From Coniochaeta sp. PMI_546 (lineage: Eukaryota > Ascomycota > Sordariomycetes > Coniochaetales > Coniochaetaceae): 64,000 nt of DNA. Below, piece after piece: positions 34,176-45,500 of this stretch (within the stretch, counting starts at the first letter, position 1; each line of letters starts with the position of its first letter). The position numbers and the translations under genes are program-made. Under the pieces are notes generated by a model. It was given only the letters and a program-made list of their open reading frames with translations, was not told the origin of the DNA and ran no database searches. Location of the stretch: NCBI GenBank assembly GCA_021432605.1, contig MU271158.1, positions 1 to 64,000 on the forward strand. Reading direction: 5' to 3'.

Positions 34176-35880
34176 CGTCGCCCATGACCCATACTGTCTG
34201 CAACCCCCATCGTCCTATGCTGCAGCGAATGGCGGTGCATTAATCAAACACCAGCATCTGTCACCTGTAGACGCCATGCGCGCCATCCGTTTATCATCCC
34301 TGCTCTGGACCCGCTGGCTAGCGTGTAGTCGTACAGATACGTCGTAGAGATATGTCGTGTCTCTCCTCGCAGGGTTGCAAGATGAAAGCCCCTGCTCAGT
34401 AGTCACAGGGTCGTGCCTAACATGCCAGGACAGAATCCAATACTGAGGTGTAGTAGTGACCGCCATGCGCATAAAACGCGTGCGCGTTTCGACTACCGCT
34501 TCCACTTTTGTCGTTAGCCATGTCGCCTGATAATCTCGAGCAACTCGCCAACAGCGGCCAGCCAGGTCCTCGTTATAGGGTCCCAACCGCTATATAGATG
34601 GGTTGCCTTGAATGGCAGGTACAACCACATATCCATTCTTGTCGGTGTTGATGAGATGCGGCGCACTAGACAGCGCAGCACCGGGATCCTCGGCCATCGG
34701 AGGCAGACAAGTTAGACGACCAGATTTGCTGAGTTGAGATAAAAGCCCGTCGCGTCATCTCGGCGGCCGCTGGAAATCGTCTGTCTTCAGAGGGGGCAAT
34801 GCGTGCTCGGCCCAGCTAGTAATCTCGGTGGTGTCTGTGGGTGATATTGAGAGCCTTCGCCGCCGGCACGTCGGGGGCCTCCAGAGGCTTTTTGAATTGA
34901 GATTGCTTGTATCGAAGGACTGCATAAGAAATGCTGTTGTTTGCCGCAGTCTGTTCTCAACTTCAATGAGGAATTTTGTCTTGTTGAGTTTGGAGAGCTG
35001 CTTTTGAGGCGTGGTCCTGGGGAGAATGTCAAATTCTGGCCGGGCCCAAATTGCATCCCGAACACACGGTACAACTGCGTCAATCTTGCATCAGCTGCCA
35101 CAATAGACATGTTGACGCGATGCTCTATCTCGAATACAAACAGACCAAGGGCGATCCCGCCTATAACGCGGAATCTGTACTGTCTTGTCTGGCTCAACCT
35201 CAAAGAATGTCGGGACTGACGCGCCTGTCATGTTCAGGTATGGCGGTGCGTGGGCGTTGCCATTGACCAGGAAAGTATTGGGTTCGCCAGACCAGACGAG
35301 TGGGTTTGCTAGAAGTTCAGTGACAATGCTCTGGCTGGTTTCATTTTTGAGCTCAGTGACCTACAAGACCTTCGCCTCATAATGCACATAAGGGCCGTCA
35401 AAGGGCTTCAGCTTACGCACTATCAACGGCCCAATTCCTGACACCGACTGAAACAAAACATGCGCATGGTAGGAATATGTTCCGGCCTCTCCGACCTCTG
35501 GATGTAGCTCGTAATCAAAGTAATGATCTGGCGGTATGGGCTATTGGCTGACCAAGGGCGTGCCGTCGCTGGAAGGGGGCGCGCTATACGTCCATGCCAA
35601 TCAATGAACAGTAAGATTCTCGTCCGAAATCTCGTTATAGACCCGAGTCCTTGTGGTTTTGTTTTCGACAACAGTACTTCAGGGCCTATATGAGTGCCAT
35701 TGAGCAAGACTGATGGACGTGTCGTGCATGCTATGTGCGCGTCGTTGTTGTATGTTACGCGCAACATATAATCAGGCTGGAGACCGCGGCCATGCACCGG
35801 TTCTCGGTGTTGCAGGAACAGGATCCACCGCAGCGTTGTCTTCTGGGGCTGGTCATCATATGTGCTAGACATACTTCAAG
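34176..35880 (-). pseudogene. Decayed multicopper oxidase (ABR1/ascorbate-oxidase-like)
   Basis: Minus-strand remains of a three-domain multicopper oxidase can be followed over the whole span in shifting frames. In order: LRVTYNNDAHIACTTRPSVL and a GPE block (about 35760-35660); RTRVYNEISDENLTVH followed by a stop and 4-bp insertion that destroys the HWHG copper site (about 35600); GEAGTYSYHAHVLFQSVSG (about 35490-35430, His-x-His intact); YRFRVIGGIALGLFVFEIE (about 35170); GWDPITRTW then AHAFYAHGGHYY (about 34458-34485, family HPFHAHG); and finally MHRHSLQH (34217-34240), where the type-1 copper Cys of HCH is now Arg. Several stops and frameshifts interrupt it. The broken gene ends 220 bp from the stop of the UstYa-like gene. 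Confidence 0.85.
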
Positions 35881-36103: not shown

Positions 36104-37311
36104 CTATGGAACTTCTACTAGGACATCATCAGAGGCAGGTTTGGACATGTAGTCTGGCGGAAGACCTGCGACCGGTGGCTCCTTTGACTGTGTCAGTTCA
36201 CTTCAATATTCGGCTACTTATGCAAACGATGTGATGATTTGATGACATACCTGTCGCATCTCTCCCCACGCCCGGATAGCCTCGAAGTTTTTGCATTTGT
36301 GCGTCGTCTGAAAGTCTGGAAATGCTTGAGGATCATTCTTATTATACCACACCTGGCCGAGAACACCTGTGTCGGCGTTGCACATGAGGACCTGCCTCAA
36401 AGTGTCTAAGCAGTGTGCTAGGGACTATCAGTAATTCCAATCTTAAGCTGGACACTGGCACCCATACAGGACTTACAAACGTGAAGCTGGAGGATATCAT
36501 CGTCATTGGTGAAGGCATGGGTTCCAAGTGCCTTGTAGTATGGATAGTTGTAGTACAGAGACTTGCGCAGAAGATTCTATCGAATCGTAAGCATCTCTAG
36601 CTCCTGAGTAACATCGATGAAGTGGCTAAACCATTTTGGAGTCGATACACACGAGGATGTTGAACTTACCAAGCAGTGTAAGTGGTGGAGTCCCTCCACA
36701 TTGACGAAGAAACCACTGCCATATTTTTCTGACCGCTGGACATGCGCTGAAGTGAGTCCACTCCGCAATCCTTCCTCCAGTGAGATAACACCTGCTCTAT
36801 CTGGATACGAGACAGCTATGTTAAAATGCAGTTCATGACAGTCTTATGATTGAATCACACTTACAGTCCACTCCTAAAGCTTCCCAAGCTGCATCTACTT
36901 CCGGAGAACCTGTCTGACGATAAACGTTCTCATGCATGAACGTGCCGTTGAATCTGGTATTTGAATACTTCAATTTCACCTGCTTGATGACCGGGGCTGA
37001 GATAGATCCCGATTAGCTCAAGAACTGTCATTGTAACTACTCAAGCGAAGCTCACAATACTGCGTAGTATAGGCAGCGCATGTTCTGTCCAGATTTCTTG
37101 TCTGGTGGCCCAGAAAGACTCCAAATAGTCCGCTGCAAATACTTGAGATAATAACGATGGTTATTATCGGAACCACGTGGAGGTTGCGTTGGCTTTTGTG
37201 CCATCGCCTTGTCGTGTCTTGCCCGCGACATAAGTCACTGGTGACATCACATTCCTCTGCATCCGCCACTTCCGCGAGTAGGCTCGTCTCGTGATATTCT
37301 TTGTCATCCAT
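36104..37311 (-). CDS. UstYa-like (DUF3328) peptide-modifying oxidase
   Basis: Membrane-anchored protein of about 294 residues. Exons (minus) are 37311-37056, 36996-36865, 36815-36670, 36576-36477, 36417-36251 and 36187-36104; introns are 49-93 bp. One transmembrane helix lies at about residues 46-68. The lumenal part carries both DUF3328 hallmark motifs His-x-x-His-Cys: HHLHC at 173-177 and HVSHC at 210-214. Other conserved pieces are FNGTFMHENVYR, SPEVDAAWEALG, and the C-terminal KCKNFEAIRAW. In ustiloxin, cyclochlorotine and related pathways UstYa proteins carry out oxidative ring closure or hydroxylation of peptide side chains. It is divergent from a Tyr-rich precursor-like peptide gene, which supports a role on that peptide. 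Confidence 0.92.
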
Positions 37312-38023
37312 GACACAGACAAAAATCTCTTGTATGAAACAAATCTTGACTGTGCACTTGGTATCTGGTTGGGACTAAAGCCCGTTGTCTTCAATGGTCC
37401 TGGATTGCTGTGCTGATAACTCGGGATTGTGGTATGCAGAAGTTAAATAGTCGCGGAGGAACGACATTTGTCCCAACTAGCTTCGTGACAGGGAGCAGAC
37501 TAGGATGTGCCCTCAAGGAGACCGTCTTTGCCAAGCTGCAAGCGGCATATCTTCACACTGGCGAGTCTTCGAATGCATTAAATGTCAATACTAAAGCAAG
37601 CCGTCGGGAAAGGGAAAGCCCAAAAGACACAATGATCAGCCCCTCATTCCAAGGCTCTAATCAGCTAAATCCTTTGTTCGCTGTTCCTAACCAATCGCGT
37701 GACTGCTTGGCTCAGCCGTACACGATGTGTTAGTTCCGGTGGCTTGCATAAGGCATCTGTAATGGCCATTACAGTCCAAGTTCCATCAGCAACACGCTGT
37801 ATGACGGCATGGAGAGTTCGGAAAAGTTGCCTGCGGATATCATGATCCCGTGGTGGCATGTCTTATAAGCACTCGAGTTTCCTGCTCTGCCATCTCAAGT
37901 GTTCTCGCTTCGTGTCCCTCCACCGTGGTCGTGCAAGGCTAAGCAAACCTCTCCAGCTTCAGTCCCTTGCCCTCTATCCACAGCAAGATCACTTCCAGTC
38001 CATTCATATATCAAAGTGCAACC
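37312..38023. promoter_or_regulatory. Shared bidirectional promoter, UstYa-like gene / peptide gene
   Basis: The 712-bp spacer separates the start codons of the UstYa-like gene (minus) and the repeat-peptide gene (plus). Divergent pairs of this kind are often co-regulated in fungal clusters. Short open frames inside show no homology. The last 20 bases before the peptide ATG have an A/C-rich context (GCAACC) typical of efficiently translated fungal genes. Confidence 0.55.
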
Positions 38024-38299
38024 ATGAAACCCGCCACTCTCGTCTACGCTCTCATTCCGCTTGCCCTCGCGGCACCTATTGCGGACGCCAATGCTGTCAC
38101 CACAGCTGAAAAGCGCCAGTACGGCTCCTATGGCTCCTACAGCCCCCCCGCTGGTGGTTATGGGTCCTATGGATCCTATAAAGGTGCCACAGGAACCCCT
38201 GCAGACTACGGCACTTACCCGGCCCCTGCTGGAGGGTATGGCTCATACGGCACCTACAAGCGCGCCGTCGGAGACTTTATCAGGAAGGTTCTAGGCTAG
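38024..38299 (+). CDS. Secreted Tyr/Gly-repeat peptide, candidate RiPP precursor
   Basis: Single-exon gene for 91 residues. Residues 1-16 are a signal peptide (MKPATLVYALIPLALA), followed by a short acidic propeptide to a Lys-Arg site at 30-31. Then come two imperfect repeats built from YGSYGSY, PPAGG or PAPAGG and YGSYGSYK, separated by a Gly/Thr spacer. A second Lys-Arg lies at 79-80 and an 11-residue basic tail follows. Signal peptide, Kex2-type sites and repeated Tyr-containing cores are the layout of fungal dikaritin precursors. The divergent neighbour encodes a UstYa-like enzyme. An alternative is a structural Gly/Tyr-rich wall protein. An ATG at 37967 is in frame but would bury the signal peptide. 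Confidence 0.85.
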   Translation: MKPATLVYALIPLALAAPIADANAVTTAEKRQYGSYGSYSPPAGGYGSYGSYKGATGTPADYGTYPAPAGGYGSYGTYKRAVGDFIRKVLG

Positions 38300-38659: not shown

Positions 38660-39327
38660 TCAGCATGCCGCTGTGGCAAGGGAGTAGACAGTTTTGCAGC
38701 CAATGTTGTTGCAGGCGTTGGGATCGCTGCATGGGAAGTTCACCGTCGTCGTGGCCAACGCCGCGGCGCAGCCACAAGGTTTGGTAAGGACCGACGTCGT
38801 CGTACAACCTGGCACGAAACAGGTCTTACAGGCTGTGCCAGTAGCGGTAACCACAGGACAGCTGACACTGCTACAAGCCTTTGTGGATACCGAAGTTGTA
38901 GTCAGGACCGATATCGCTGTGGTAGTTTGTTGGACCGTGGTCGTCGCTGTTGACGTCAGGGTCAAATATGCGGTACTGAGAACAGTCGTACTGCTGGTGA
39001 TTGTCACTGGGTAGCTGACAGTCGATGAGACGGTCGTTATCTCCAAATAATTTTCCGTGATCGTGGTCACCTGCGTGATGCGCTCGCTGACCGTCTCCGT
39101 CTTCGTGACCGTCTCGATTTGAGTCTCCGTCTCCGTCTCCGTCCATGGCTCAGGACACTTTGTACCCGTGGGCTTCCGGGTAATGGTAGTCGGCGTCAGA
39201 GTAATCTGTGCCGCCACCTGCCTGGTCGGGTGAAACTTCCAGTCAGTATCACCTCAGTCTCAGCTAGAGATCCCGGAGAAACGTACGCCGCGAGCAAGCC
39301 GACTAAGACCAGTATAGCGGAATGCAT
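38660..39327 (-). CDS. Secreted Thr-rich protein with C-terminal Cys cluster
   Basis: About 200 residues. Exons (minus) are 39327-39287 and 39221-38660, with a 65-bp GTACGT...CAG intron. Splicing restores a signal peptide MHSAILVLVGLLAAQVAAQ. The mature protein has a TETETET run, a long Thr/Ser/Val stretch with many TTT, TVT and STV words likely to be O-glycosylated, and then about ten Cys in the last 70 residues (patterns CSSVSC, CKTC, CGC, C-x5-C). Many fungal surface proteins look like this; no named domain is recognised. It converges on the repeat-peptide gene with 360 bp between stops, so membership in the same cluster is possible but unproven. Confidence 0.75.
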
Positions 39328-41068
39328 CGTCTCGAAGTCAAAACTCGATGTACCCGATGAGAGGTCCAGAAATTGAGGAGGTTACAGCCTCGATGCGTAA
39401 TCTTCGACGAACTGGTAGAGATATACCATGATCAAGGAGGACCTGTTGTATTTATAGCACCCGTCTTAAAGTTCCAGAGCAAAGGAGACCAATGTCTTGT
39501 GTACACTTTAGAATCTCATAAACTTCAGAGGGGCAACCATGTGCTGTGCTTCTGGCCTTTTCCGACCTCGACTCTCAGGATGCTTCCCAATCAGGGTTGA
39601 TCTCGGTTATTAACGGTTTCGGATGAGCCAATCGTGTCGAGAGCCCAGGATACCCGATATTGCAGATTGATTGTTGACGTAGCAATTGTTATATTGCTGT
39701 TGTATTGTCCCATACTCTTGAGCACGCGGCTGAATCGGAACCGACCGAGATCCAGGTACGATTAGGGTTTCAACTAAAAATAACATTTTCAATACTCATG
39801 ATCCAAGGATGTTGTGTATTGCAGCTAACGCTATAACTTGAACGAGTAGGTAAACGGAGGCATCTGGATAGAGTATCGGGCTTGTTCGCAGCGCGAGCTG
39901 CTAATTAGTTGCTCCGTTAGCATGCGAGTCATCGTCCTGGTCAAGGGAGGGACGAATAGCTACTATTATTCAGACGTCTAGAGAGTGATTAGTAGCAGTC
40001 CCCTAAGCTTGAAAATGTAACAGCGTTATGTAGCATACAGTGCGCAACATAAGCCTCGAGTCCATGCTATCACTACTCAGGACTTGTCTAGGTACTTCTA
40101 CTAGATCTGGGGTATTTGCAACGCCTTTGTTGTCCGCTTTGGATTGGAAGAATGAAGTTAGATCCCGGCGGAAAGCTAACCACGAAGTCGACTCGCATTT
40201 TGATCGGCTTCCAGCCAATTGTAGGGGCATTAGCGGACACGGTCGCGGCCTGTTTAGATTTCTTAGGATTCGCACTCATCAGCACTATCAGTCCCGTCCA
40301 GGTCTTGCCACTAATGATGGCGATGTCCCTGCAGCGACGATGGGCCATGTATCAGGAAAGTAGATGCTTCCCCTACCTTCTGACTGGTTCATACCCGCGG
40401 ACGCTATATTTTCGACACAGGCATCATATAGTAAGGTTGAATCATCCATGTATATGTGATTCCATCGCAGTCAGGACGACATCGTTGCCAAGGAGGAAAG
40501 CGTCCTCGGAATTGGCGTCGGTGAGCACACGCCTTATCAGGAATGGGATCTTAATTAACACCCTGGAAGGCGCACTGAGCCATCTTCGCGTCTTGTCCAC
40601 TTCGTATGCGTGTGGGTTGTAGTGTCGGCACAGGGTGTGGGAATCATGTTTTCAACTCAACGAAGGGATGGCTCGTGAACAAATTCATATTGAAGATAGT
40701 GGTCCTGACGAGTACGGACTCCAATATCACCAACGAACCTTCTGTGAGCGAACAGAGACGTGTGGTTTGAAGATGACTCCGCGCCGTCTGGTTGTGGCAT
40801 ATTTCTGCACGCTGTATGGCCACTTGGGACAGAAGTACAGTCGGCTCGGGGTGGTTGACTCGATTGACTGCTGTGCGCACGCGCGGAATAGCTTTTTGAG
40901 GATAGAGAAATGATAGTAACATGCCCTCCCTTGTTCGGACTGATACCTGATATGAGTGTAGACATCACTCAAATAATTAGCACTGAATTATGGAGTATGA
41001 GAACACAACACGGAAGCTCAGCGCTGCAGATTTGGGCGAATGTAGAGCGCTGCTGATCAGACTCAACA
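39328..41068. other. 1.7-kb gene-free stretch
   Basis: Frames of up to 168 codons occur (40116-40622 plus) without a recognisable domain or credible exon chain. Confidence 0.5.
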
Positions 41069-42561: not shown

Positions 42562-45500
42562 CTACTGAGAAGGTGGCGCAAGCAGCGCTCTGCAGGTAGG
42601 CGAGAACGTTAATATGATAACCGTGATCAACCGAGCAGGGGAAACACTTACCCCCAGTTCAATGATGGGTCAATCGGCTCCGTGTTCTGGCCTGTTAAGT
42701 CGAGCCAGTTCTTTGAATTGCCTGCCGCATTGCCCTTTCGAAGGATTCCGTACTTGTCGCACGCGTCCCGATGTGACACGGGGATGTACAACTTGAGGCT
42801 CTGCAGCACGTCTGGTGCTTCGACGAACGTAGCGACCAGGCCGGACTCCACATGGAACTCAGTATGGCAGTGGAAGAGGTTGATGCCAGGATTGTCCGCT
42901 CGGAAGCGGATTGTTGCACCGCCGCCAGGATAGACAATGACTGTGTCTCTGCGCATAGGGCTCGATGGGGTGTTGTAAAGGCCGGGCCAGAGAGCCCCAT
43001 TGTCTGATCGGCTGATAAGCTGGAAGTTATGCCCATGTAGATGGAAAGGGTGGGCACGGTTGTCGTGGTTATTAATGTCGATCTCAATCACTTTATCGAA
43101 TCCCAGAACGAAGGAGTTGGAGGCAGAACCGTAGATTGACGGATCATTGACAACACTGAGTGGCGCTGTCATGGCACTGTATAGTGTAGGGACCTATTGG
43201 AGGACTATTAGACTTGAGTTCTACGCCTACCAGGTAAATACTTACCTTCTGGGAGACGTATGTTTGCCCGTTCTAAGATGCTCGTAAGTATGTCGAATGT
43301 CAATCATGTGGCGGTGACTTGCTGCCACTTACAAAGAACGCTCTGGTTGACTGTTGGTCATTCGGCCCGAAGTCCGCAGTTAGATAGATCCTGTAGGTCT
43401 CCAAGCGTCAGTAATGTCAGCGATACTGATTGTGACCCCTGAAGTTCTCGTACGTTTGGTCTACTGGGCCAAGTAGACTCTGTTGATCCCACGGTGCAAG
43501 CGTGCTGTCGTCCCATGGTAGCGGTTGGAGACTGAAGGGCGCGGGCAGAGGCTTTGCGGTGTTGTACACAAGCCAAGCCGTGCACTAGTTTAAGATCAGC
43601 GATAACTTCGAGGTCATCGCTGCGCGATAGCTCCGAGAGAGTACTGAACTCACCGTTGCCTGCTGTCCCGCCGGTGTGATTGTCGAATCAAACATGTCTG
43701 TGTTGAACTGCGCCACGATGGCAAAGTTCTGCTGATTTGTATCCTTTGCTTGGACAATAACTTTGTATCTCTGTGCAACTCCCACAAATATCTGATTCAC
43801 TGTCTGTGGTAAGGTGTAGACACCGTCAACCTCAACGATAGTCATGGAATGCTGATCAAACTGTAGATAGTGTCCTGCAAGGGCACCCATATTGATGATG
43901 TGGAATAGGTAAGTCTTCCCTGCTGTGATTGCGTACTTGACGTTTTGTGCTTCATTGATCAAGGCAGAGTCGGGAACGGGCTCGGCACCTCCAGTTGTAA
44001 AAGTATTGTTTGGCGATAAGTAGTGATTGATCAGGAATGGCGCTTGCTGATGATACAAGTCCGACAAGGTGAGAGTCAACTCTTGATCAACCTTGTATGG
44101 TGCATGTGGGTCTGATACTATAAGTGGTCCGCGAAGTCCATCTGAAGAATGGGTCAGCATATCAGGGCTGGATCGCGGAGCACGGGAACTTGCCAATGTA
44201 CTGGCCACCGAGGTGGGCATGATACCAGTACGTTCCGGACTGGGTGAGCTTTGATCCCGTAAGCTGAGGCGCGATGCATAATGGTGTGTGTTCTTGACTT
44301 ACTGTGAACTGGTAAACAAAACTGTCACCAGGCATGATGGGACACTGCGTAGCCATAGAGGCACCATCGGAATACGTCGTGTTTCTCTGGAAAAGGCCGT
44401 GAAAGTGAATTGCGGTGCTTTGATTGCCAAGGCCGTTGTAAACGTTGATCTTGATCGTGTCCCCAAGGTTGCCGGTCAGGGGTGGGCAGGGCCACTGTCC
44501 GTTGATGCCAACGAAAGGCCTCCTGAAGCCGTCGGGAGTTGCTGAAACCCAGGTAACATTCCAGTTGTAAGTACGAAGAATGCCCTTGGGAAGAGGATAG
44601 CTCGTATAGGTGGGATAACTGCTCGTGGTTGAGCTTGTTGCCCGGCTAGAGGAGATTGATGATGATGTTGAAGATTGTGTTGATGTCCTCTTCGTTGAGG
44701 TAAGTATGGTGGTAGAGGAAGAAACAGAATTTGTTGCAGTTGACGAGGTCCTCGTGGATGTATACGATGATGTGATCGAAGTCTTCGAGCTTGAGGTGGA
44801 GCTGGTGCCTGAGGATTTTGCTATTGTCGTCGTGGAAGTTTTTGACGATGAAAGAGTAGAGGTAGAGGTTATTGATGTCGAGGAGCTACTGCTGAGTTCT
44901 GAGGTTGTTAGCATTCGAAGAACAAAAGAGGAGCAATAGAGGATATTGCGGAGCAGTGGGTCAACCCAGACGCGAACGTCTAGCTGGTATAGGACGATCG
45001 ACGGAATGGAATGAATGCGTCCAGTGGACATGTAGGCACAGAAACAAGAAAGCAGACGGACGTACTTGAAGTGGAACGTGACGAGGTAGAGGGCAACACC
45101 GATGACGAAGTGGAGCTCGAGGACGGGGGTACAGGGGGAGTCCCCGGAGGAGCGAAGCCAAGGACTTGGTTCTGCCGCGAAGTGTAGATTCTCGTGTTAC
45201 CAAATCCTGGCCGTTGAAATTTGGTGAGCCTGCCCGATGCGACAAACGTGTACGGCACAAGCTTTCCTCCTTGTGGGACGGCGTTGAAGGGCACGAGACC
45301 CTGGTTGATATCTGCCATCCATACCTGGTGTTATCGGCACGGGTTAGCCAGGAGCATGGGAGCATGCGGGATGGTAGGGTACGTACAATGCCCGTGCCGA
45401 TTCGGCCATTCAGGGATGTTACAGTTGGAACTGTCTCTCCAGCGAACACCATGTCGCTCTTGCCAGCGAAAGCGAAGGAGGGGTTACCATTACCGTCGAC

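Follow-up and report, generated by a model that had tools for sequence, protein, structure and literature searches.

A UstYa-family oxidase gene and a divergent gene for a secreted tyrosine-rich peptide in Coniochaeta sp. PMI_546: a candidate enzyme–substrate pair with one long core

Introduction

Does a UstYa (DUF3328)-family oxidase gene that shares its upstream region with the gene of a small secreted tyrosine-rich peptide mark a ribosomal-peptide pathway of the dikaritin type, or a system of another kind? The question is raised by a locus in the window analysed in the present study, the first 64 kb of contig 16 of Coniochaeta sp. PMI_546 (a genome of 33.5 Mb in 24 contigs). The original prediction, made from the DNA alone, was a minimal and perhaps undescribed cluster with short YGSYGSY-type cores. 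UstYa-linked precursors have been found in published surveys by means of tandem repeats separated by Kex2 sites: KEPs are defined as having at least three repeats of at least eight amino acids between Kex2 sites (PMC7329392), and the Venturia study, in its account of the procedure, likewise relied on repeats separated by kexin sites (PMC9632046). In Umemura's survey a DUF3328 neighbour accompanied 1758 of 7878 KEPs, and tyrosine in the repeats was commoner in the presence of such a neighbour (65.6% versus 38.2%; PMC7329392). A review reports UstYa proteins in non-RiPP pathways as well, and raises single-core precursors as a possibility (PMC12048977).

Results

Structure of the two genes

The features of the locus are collected in Table 1. 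Splicing of the oxidase gene by script gave a protein that ends exactly at position 36104 and matches the Pfam profile of the UstYa family (PF11807) with an E-value of 8.4e-56 over profile positions 4–218 of 220. It contains both HxxHC motifs of the UstYa family, HHLHC (residue 168) and HVSHC (residue 205), and a single hydrophobic stretch near the N-terminus, where the 19-residue Kyte–Doolittle windows starting at residues 43–52 exceeded 1.6. The six-exon DUF3328 gene with two HxxHC motifs and one transmembrane helix was thus, to the base, as predicted, and so was the upstream region shared by the divergent genes, whose start codons lie 712 bp apart.

The peptide gene encodes a precursor with a hydrophobic N-terminus (hydropathy maximum 2.19 over 15 residues), and the signal peptide was called from this hydropathy together with the conserved A-A-P boundary of the family alignment, in which Ala16 and Ala17 are nearly invariant and Pro18 is invariant. 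The Tyr/Gly/Pro block contains 11 tyrosine and 13 glycine residues with a KR site on either side, in agreement with the predicted 91-residue secreted peptide with a signal sequence and Tyr/Gly repeats. As relatives were found at 87, 78 and 70% identity over 99–100% of the length (best E-value 1.7e-43), the frame is a genuine gene and not a random open reading frame, and we are nearly certain of the reality and conservation of both genes. A second copy of the peptide gene was not found in the host genome by protein search; a YGSYGSY-type DNA pattern matched the genome five times, three times within the peptide gene and twice elsewhere, where it read YGRYGTY and YGRYGWY.

Table 1 Features of the oxidase–peptide locus, in window positions
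Feature	Position	Strand	Description	Basis or remark
UstYa/DUF3328-family oxidase gene	36104..37311	-	six exons, 289 aa	splicing by script, PF11807, motifs, hydropathy, orthologues
Oxidase exons	37311-37056, 36996-36865, 36800-36670, 36576-36477, 36417-36251, 36187-36104	-	GT-AG introns	
Divergent intergenic region common to both genes	37312..38023	.	712 bp	start codons
Secreted Tyr/Gly-rich peptide precursor gene	38024..38299	+	91 aa, no intron needed	translation; family of 128 sequences
Predicted signal peptide	38024..38077	+	residues 1-18, cleavage position approximate; ends at conserved A-A-P	hydropathy, alignment
First Kex2-type KR site	38111..38116	+	residues 30-31, immediately 5' of Tyr block	poorly conserved in family
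Tyr/Gly/Pro block	38117..38257	+	47 residues; three copies of YGSYG[ST]Y unit	likely substrate region
Second Kex2-type KR site	38258..38263	+	residues 79-80, immediately 3' of block	conserved in family
C-terminal tail AVGDFIRKVLG	38264..38296	+	amphipathic; candidate follower/recognition sequence	family tails, helical moment

The oxidase family

A protein search with the oxidase returned 591 homologues at E-values up to 0.001. Among the best 120 of these 591 that were listed, 118 keep the two HxxHC motifs, and the genera include Colletotrichum, Verticillium, Fusarium, Trichoderma, Sclerotinia and Cadophora. Orthology was judged within the host genome, by comparison of the window gene with 19 fetched stretches holding all the other UstYa matches of the genome. 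The window gene was the best own-genome match for all 121 queries (the window oxidase itself and the 120 listed homologues), and on this ground a paralogue of the other UstYa genes of the host was rejected. By this sequence comparison the oxidase is one of a group of orthologues, at least 120 of them listed, and since the group is of this size the pair is widely conserved rather than a local, patchy cluster. The wording 'minimal, perhaps undescribed' cluster of the original prediction accordingly calls for a change. A strain-specific minimal cluster was ruled out by the conserved orthology of the oxidase and by the many relatives of the peptide. The peptide family was not found described: text searches of open-licence papers for the family motifs returned no paper on it, although supplementary tables of surveys may list it. 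No solved structure of a relative was found, the only matches at E-values up to 1 being to chondroadherin (0.78 and 0.81), which we took as chance.

The peptide family and its dibasic sites

A first search with the peptide returned 70 proteins at E-values up to 10. A profile search, in which scoring was confined to the 8000 candidates with most words in common, gave 214 matches at E-values up to 1, of which the best 120 were listed. The window peptide, the 70 proteins and 58 new ones made a set of 129 sequences, reduced to 128 by the removal of P0070 on visual inspection. The family is spread over several fungal classes.

Within this set the Tyr block contains no internal dibasic site in 105 of 128 sequences and at least one in the remaining 23. 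A dibasic site directly follows the last Tyr unit in 100/128, but lies within six residues before the first Tyr unit in only 17/128; all of these counts are descriptive, since the set includes some fragments, some extended gene models and many related sequences. These three counts clearly indicate that the Tyr block is to be read as one unit and that the conserved cut would be the one after it. The original prediction of 'KR-flanked YGSYGSY cores' was accordingly not upheld, since in the window peptide the KR sites bracket the entire 47-residue block and not the individual repeats. Dibasic sites inside the Tyr region were seen in relatives such as P0020, P0028, P0192 and P0193, and because 23/128 sequences have such sites, repeat-type and single-block peptides may mark the extremes of a single family.

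Linkage of the two genes in other fungi

As a proxy for linkage, we looked for relatives of the peptide and of the oxidase on contigs of identical length in base pairs, a coincidence that places two genes on the same contig but does not make them adjacent. The sample consisted of 43 peptide-family and 103 oxidase matches on contigs of at least 10 kb, among the matches listed and transcribed by hand. Exactly three length coincidences occurred, and each joined proteins of one species. In Sporothrix curviconia the peptide and oxidase carry consecutive tags (009900 and 009899) on a 23,722-bp contig, the one case in which tags show adjacency; in Thozetella sp. PMI_491 and Dactylonectria estremocensis both relatives lie on contigs of the same length. 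Relatives of both genes thus lie on contigs of identical length in three of the four species named in both match listings. The three species belong to the Ophiostomatales, Chaetosphaeriales and Hypocreales respectively, and Coniochaeta to the Coniochaetales.

The fourth species was Coniochaeta sp. 2T2.1, whose best relatives lie on different contigs of 4,453,468 and 4,640,340 bp and are therefore unlinked. The best-matching named relatives of both proteins come from Coniochaeta. The original prediction had named a conserved peptide gene in species without a UstYa neighbour as a finding that would speak against it, and this was encountered in part, in the single species 2T2.1; it is possible that a different UstYa gene adjoins the peptide gene there. 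The peptide family also occurs in fungi that are not represented among the best 120 of the 591 oxidase matches, those that were listed.

Taken together, these results suggest that the two genes are likely to be functionally linked. As the genes adjoin and their relatives share a DNA stretch in some other fungi, the oxidase probably modifies the peptide, and on balance we favour an enzyme–substrate pair in which the Tyr block of the neighbouring peptide would be the target. Against such a pair stand the unlinked relatives in 2T2.1, the size of the linkage sample (four species), the acidic-tailed or tail-less members of the peptide family, the action of UstYa proteins in non-RiPP pathways too (PMC12048977) and the lack of tyrosinase and S41 peptidase matches on contig 16. 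The predicted RiPP reading was in this way retained in part: a UstYa protein with the full metal motif adjoins the secreted Tyr-rich peptide, and such pairing is seen again in other fungi, but dikaritin-like short cores were not supported.

The same facts may be explained differently, with the peptide as a secreted structural or cell-wall protein whose tyrosine residues stay unmodified or are cross-linked by other enzymes such as laccases, the UstYa protein acting elsewhere and the shared promoter reflecting co-regulation or chance. The abundance of Gly, Tyr, Pro and Ser and the variable number of repeats would suit such a protein, as would the separate contigs in 2T2.1 and an apparently intact multicopper oxidase at 42651–45196, approximately 4.4 kb past the peptide gene. 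However, same-length contigs in three of four species, with four orders counting Coniochaeta, are not what this explanation would lead one to expect, and the C-terminal dibasic site and tail are kept beyond the needs of a purely structural repeat. We therefore consider a structural protein unlikely, while giving it real weight.

The C-terminal tail

Tails of 8–12 residues could be scored in 79 sequences; 59 (of the 129 sequences) are hydrophobic, and 20 are acidic or of another kind. The helical moment was more than one s.d. above that of the tail's own shuffles in 54 of 57 distinct hydrophobic tails (mean z 1.76), although these are not 57 independent tests because the tails are related to one another. 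Among five angles tried, the mean helical moment of the hydrophobic tails was highest at 100 degrees per residue. The window tail, AVGDFIRKVLG, has a net charge of +1. Judged by its sequence, the tail may be a follower or recognition sequence, but a universal role is disfavoured because some members have acidic tails or none.

The prevalence and amphipathic character of these tails would also agree with the tail itself being the active product, a signal or membrane-active peptide released by Kex2, with the Tyr block as its pro-region or carrier. This is improbable in our view: 20/79 scorable tails are acidic or non-hydrophobic, some members stop right after the Tyr block, which itself is kept throughout, and a Tyr-rich substrate would better suit an oxidase partner.

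Other UstYa loci of the same genome

The 19 fetched stretches represent 17 other UstYa neighbourhoods, as two pairs are contiguous. When these were scanned for repeats separated by KR, eight stretches were flagged; one arginine-rich low-complexity match was set aside, leaving classical repeat peptides at seven of 17 neighbourhoods, a lower bound because the scan ignores introns and reaches approximately 4–5 kb on each side. The same scan flagged no repeat peptide in the window. The genome thus has typical dikaritin-like loci, from which the window pair differs in type. Repeat units at these other neighbourhoods end, for example, in VQYYPSKR, NGVITWNDKR or VLGDASMDKR. A fuller ustiloxin-type neighbourhood with several UstYa matches was observed on contig 1 (2341111–2367823). 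It holds a repeat peptide with KR-separated units of the VEDYLIAIIKR type, an S41 peptidase match at 2.3436 Mb, and three places with tyrosinase matches, at ~2.347, 2.350 and 2.367 Mb.

The window locus shares with dikaritin loci a UstYa gene near the gene of a secreted precursor, the signal peptide (from hydropathy and the A-A-P boundary) and tyrosine in the core (11/47). No recognised dikaritin tailoring gene was present among 20 open frames of the window, picked by length and position, that were scanned with Pfam, and neither the 26 tyrosinase nor the three S41 peptidase matches of the genome lie on contig 16. The missing tyrosinase is not decisive, since we know of no tyrosinase requirement for asperipin-2a. 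The peptide itself has one 47-residue unit between two KR sites, and it is this single block without internal dibasic sites that places it outside the tandem-repeat (KEP) definition of dikaritin precursors. A classical dikaritin, from which Kex2 and other peptidases would free many short YGSYGSY-type cores for macrocyclization by UstYa as for ustiloxin and asperipin-2a, could call on the Tyr-containing internal repeats, the adjacent UstYa gene and the single-UstYa precedent described for asperipin-2a (PMC7329392), but it is rejected as the leading explanation and seems very improbable, as neither the window peptide nor 105/128 family sequences have a dibasic site between the repeats, and the repeat scan picked out seven of 17 other UstYa neighbourhoods but not this one.

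Discussion

The best reading of these results is a conserved UstYa–peptide pair with one long core. In the mechanism that we propose, the N-terminal helix would fix the UstYa-like protein in the ER/Golgi membrane. The catalytic domain would face the lumen, with a pair of copper ions bound by the two HxxHC motifs, and the 91-residue precursor would reach the same compartment via its signal peptide. The oxidase, using oxygen and perhaps docking on the conserved amphipathic tail, would act on the Tyr-rich block, cross-linking or hydroxylation of Tyr side chains being the most likely modification. Cleavage by Kex2 behind the first KR and the conserved YKR would remove the tail and leave a modified Tyr/Gly/Pro peptide of ~45–47 residues.

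A cross-linked Tyr/Gly/Pro block would resemble resilin. We put forward only tentatively the wider proposal of a long-conserved fungal system distinct from the tandem-repeat dikaritins, as we regard it as rather doubtful in this full form. Here a UstYa enzyme with binuclear copper would recognize the C-terminal amphipathic follower and cross-link the single long block into a resilin-like extracellular peptide or wall material.

The binuclear copper, the oxygen dependence and the membrane location are carried over from what has been published on other enzymes of the family. CctR, a DUF3328 protein, is described as a binuclear copper enzyme that is associated with the membrane, depends on dioxygen and has its copper at HxxHC(x)nHxxHC (PMC12435403). 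The window oxidase resembles such copper hydroxylases in this motif and in its single membrane helix, and copper/oxygen chemistry like that of CctR would be expected in it from its homology to the studied DUF3328 enzymes. However, the substrate given for CctR is the non-ribosomal peptide cyclochlorotine (PMC12435403), whereas the window oxidase adjoins a ribosomal peptide gene.

Among the ribosomal peptides, asperipin-2a resembles the window pair in having one UstYa protein (AprY, PMC12435403), a Tyr-containing secreted precursor and Kex2-type sites (PMC7329392, PMC12186524). Its precursor, as described there, has separate short Kex2-processed repeats, in contrast with the uninterrupted Tyr/Gly/Pro block and conserved tail of the window peptide. 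With the ustiloxin and phomopsin dikaritins the pair shares the UstYa family, tyrosine as the modified residue (here a candidate) and the secretory route, but the 16-fold KR-separated repeat reported for the ustiloxin precursor (PMC10512285) was not found in the window peptide, and contig 16 lacks a match to the tyrosinase stated to be required in those pathways (PMC7329392). KEPs in general are similar in signal peptide, internal repeats and dibasic sites, and differ in the number of units between Kex2 sites. Plant BURP-domain peptide cyclases (burpitides) are comparable in copper-dependent cross-linking of aromatic side chains guided by a recognition sequence, as summarized in PMC12186524, although the enzyme family and organism are unrelated and the likeness is one of mechanism only. 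Thus the pair probably works as a UstYa-modified ribosomal peptide, yet the repeat definition places it outside the dikaritins.

Because published surveys demand Kex2-separated tandem repeats, a pair such as this one would escape them, and yet its oxidase group has more than 100 members and its peptide family is broad. If the enzyme does act on the peptide, UstYa chemistry would serve a conserved function and not only patchy metabolite clusters, and the locus would offer a natural, short enzyme–substrate pair with a candidate recognition tail as a handle on the substrate choice of UstYa enzymes.

The genes around the pair encode an OPT transporter, a DEAD-box helicase, decayed and intact-looking multicopper oxidases and an unmatched Thr-rich secreted protein. 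The decayed multicopper oxidase fragments adjoin the UstYa gene (34787–35875, minus strand; a weak PF00394 match with an E-value of 4.2e-4, just under the cut-off) and show 25% identity over 83 amino acids with the intact-looking copy. The Thr/Ser-rich, Cys-ended and apparently secreted protein (38663–39350, minus strand) lies end-to-end with the peptide gene and had no Pfam match in the part scanned. In Sporothrix bragantina, a gene model named NOP10 (snoRNP) starts with a full precursor of the peptide family (P0026) and is apparently a fused annotation; the use of NOP10 as a synteny marker was dropped, as in the host genome NOP10 lies on contig 4 and not on contig 16.
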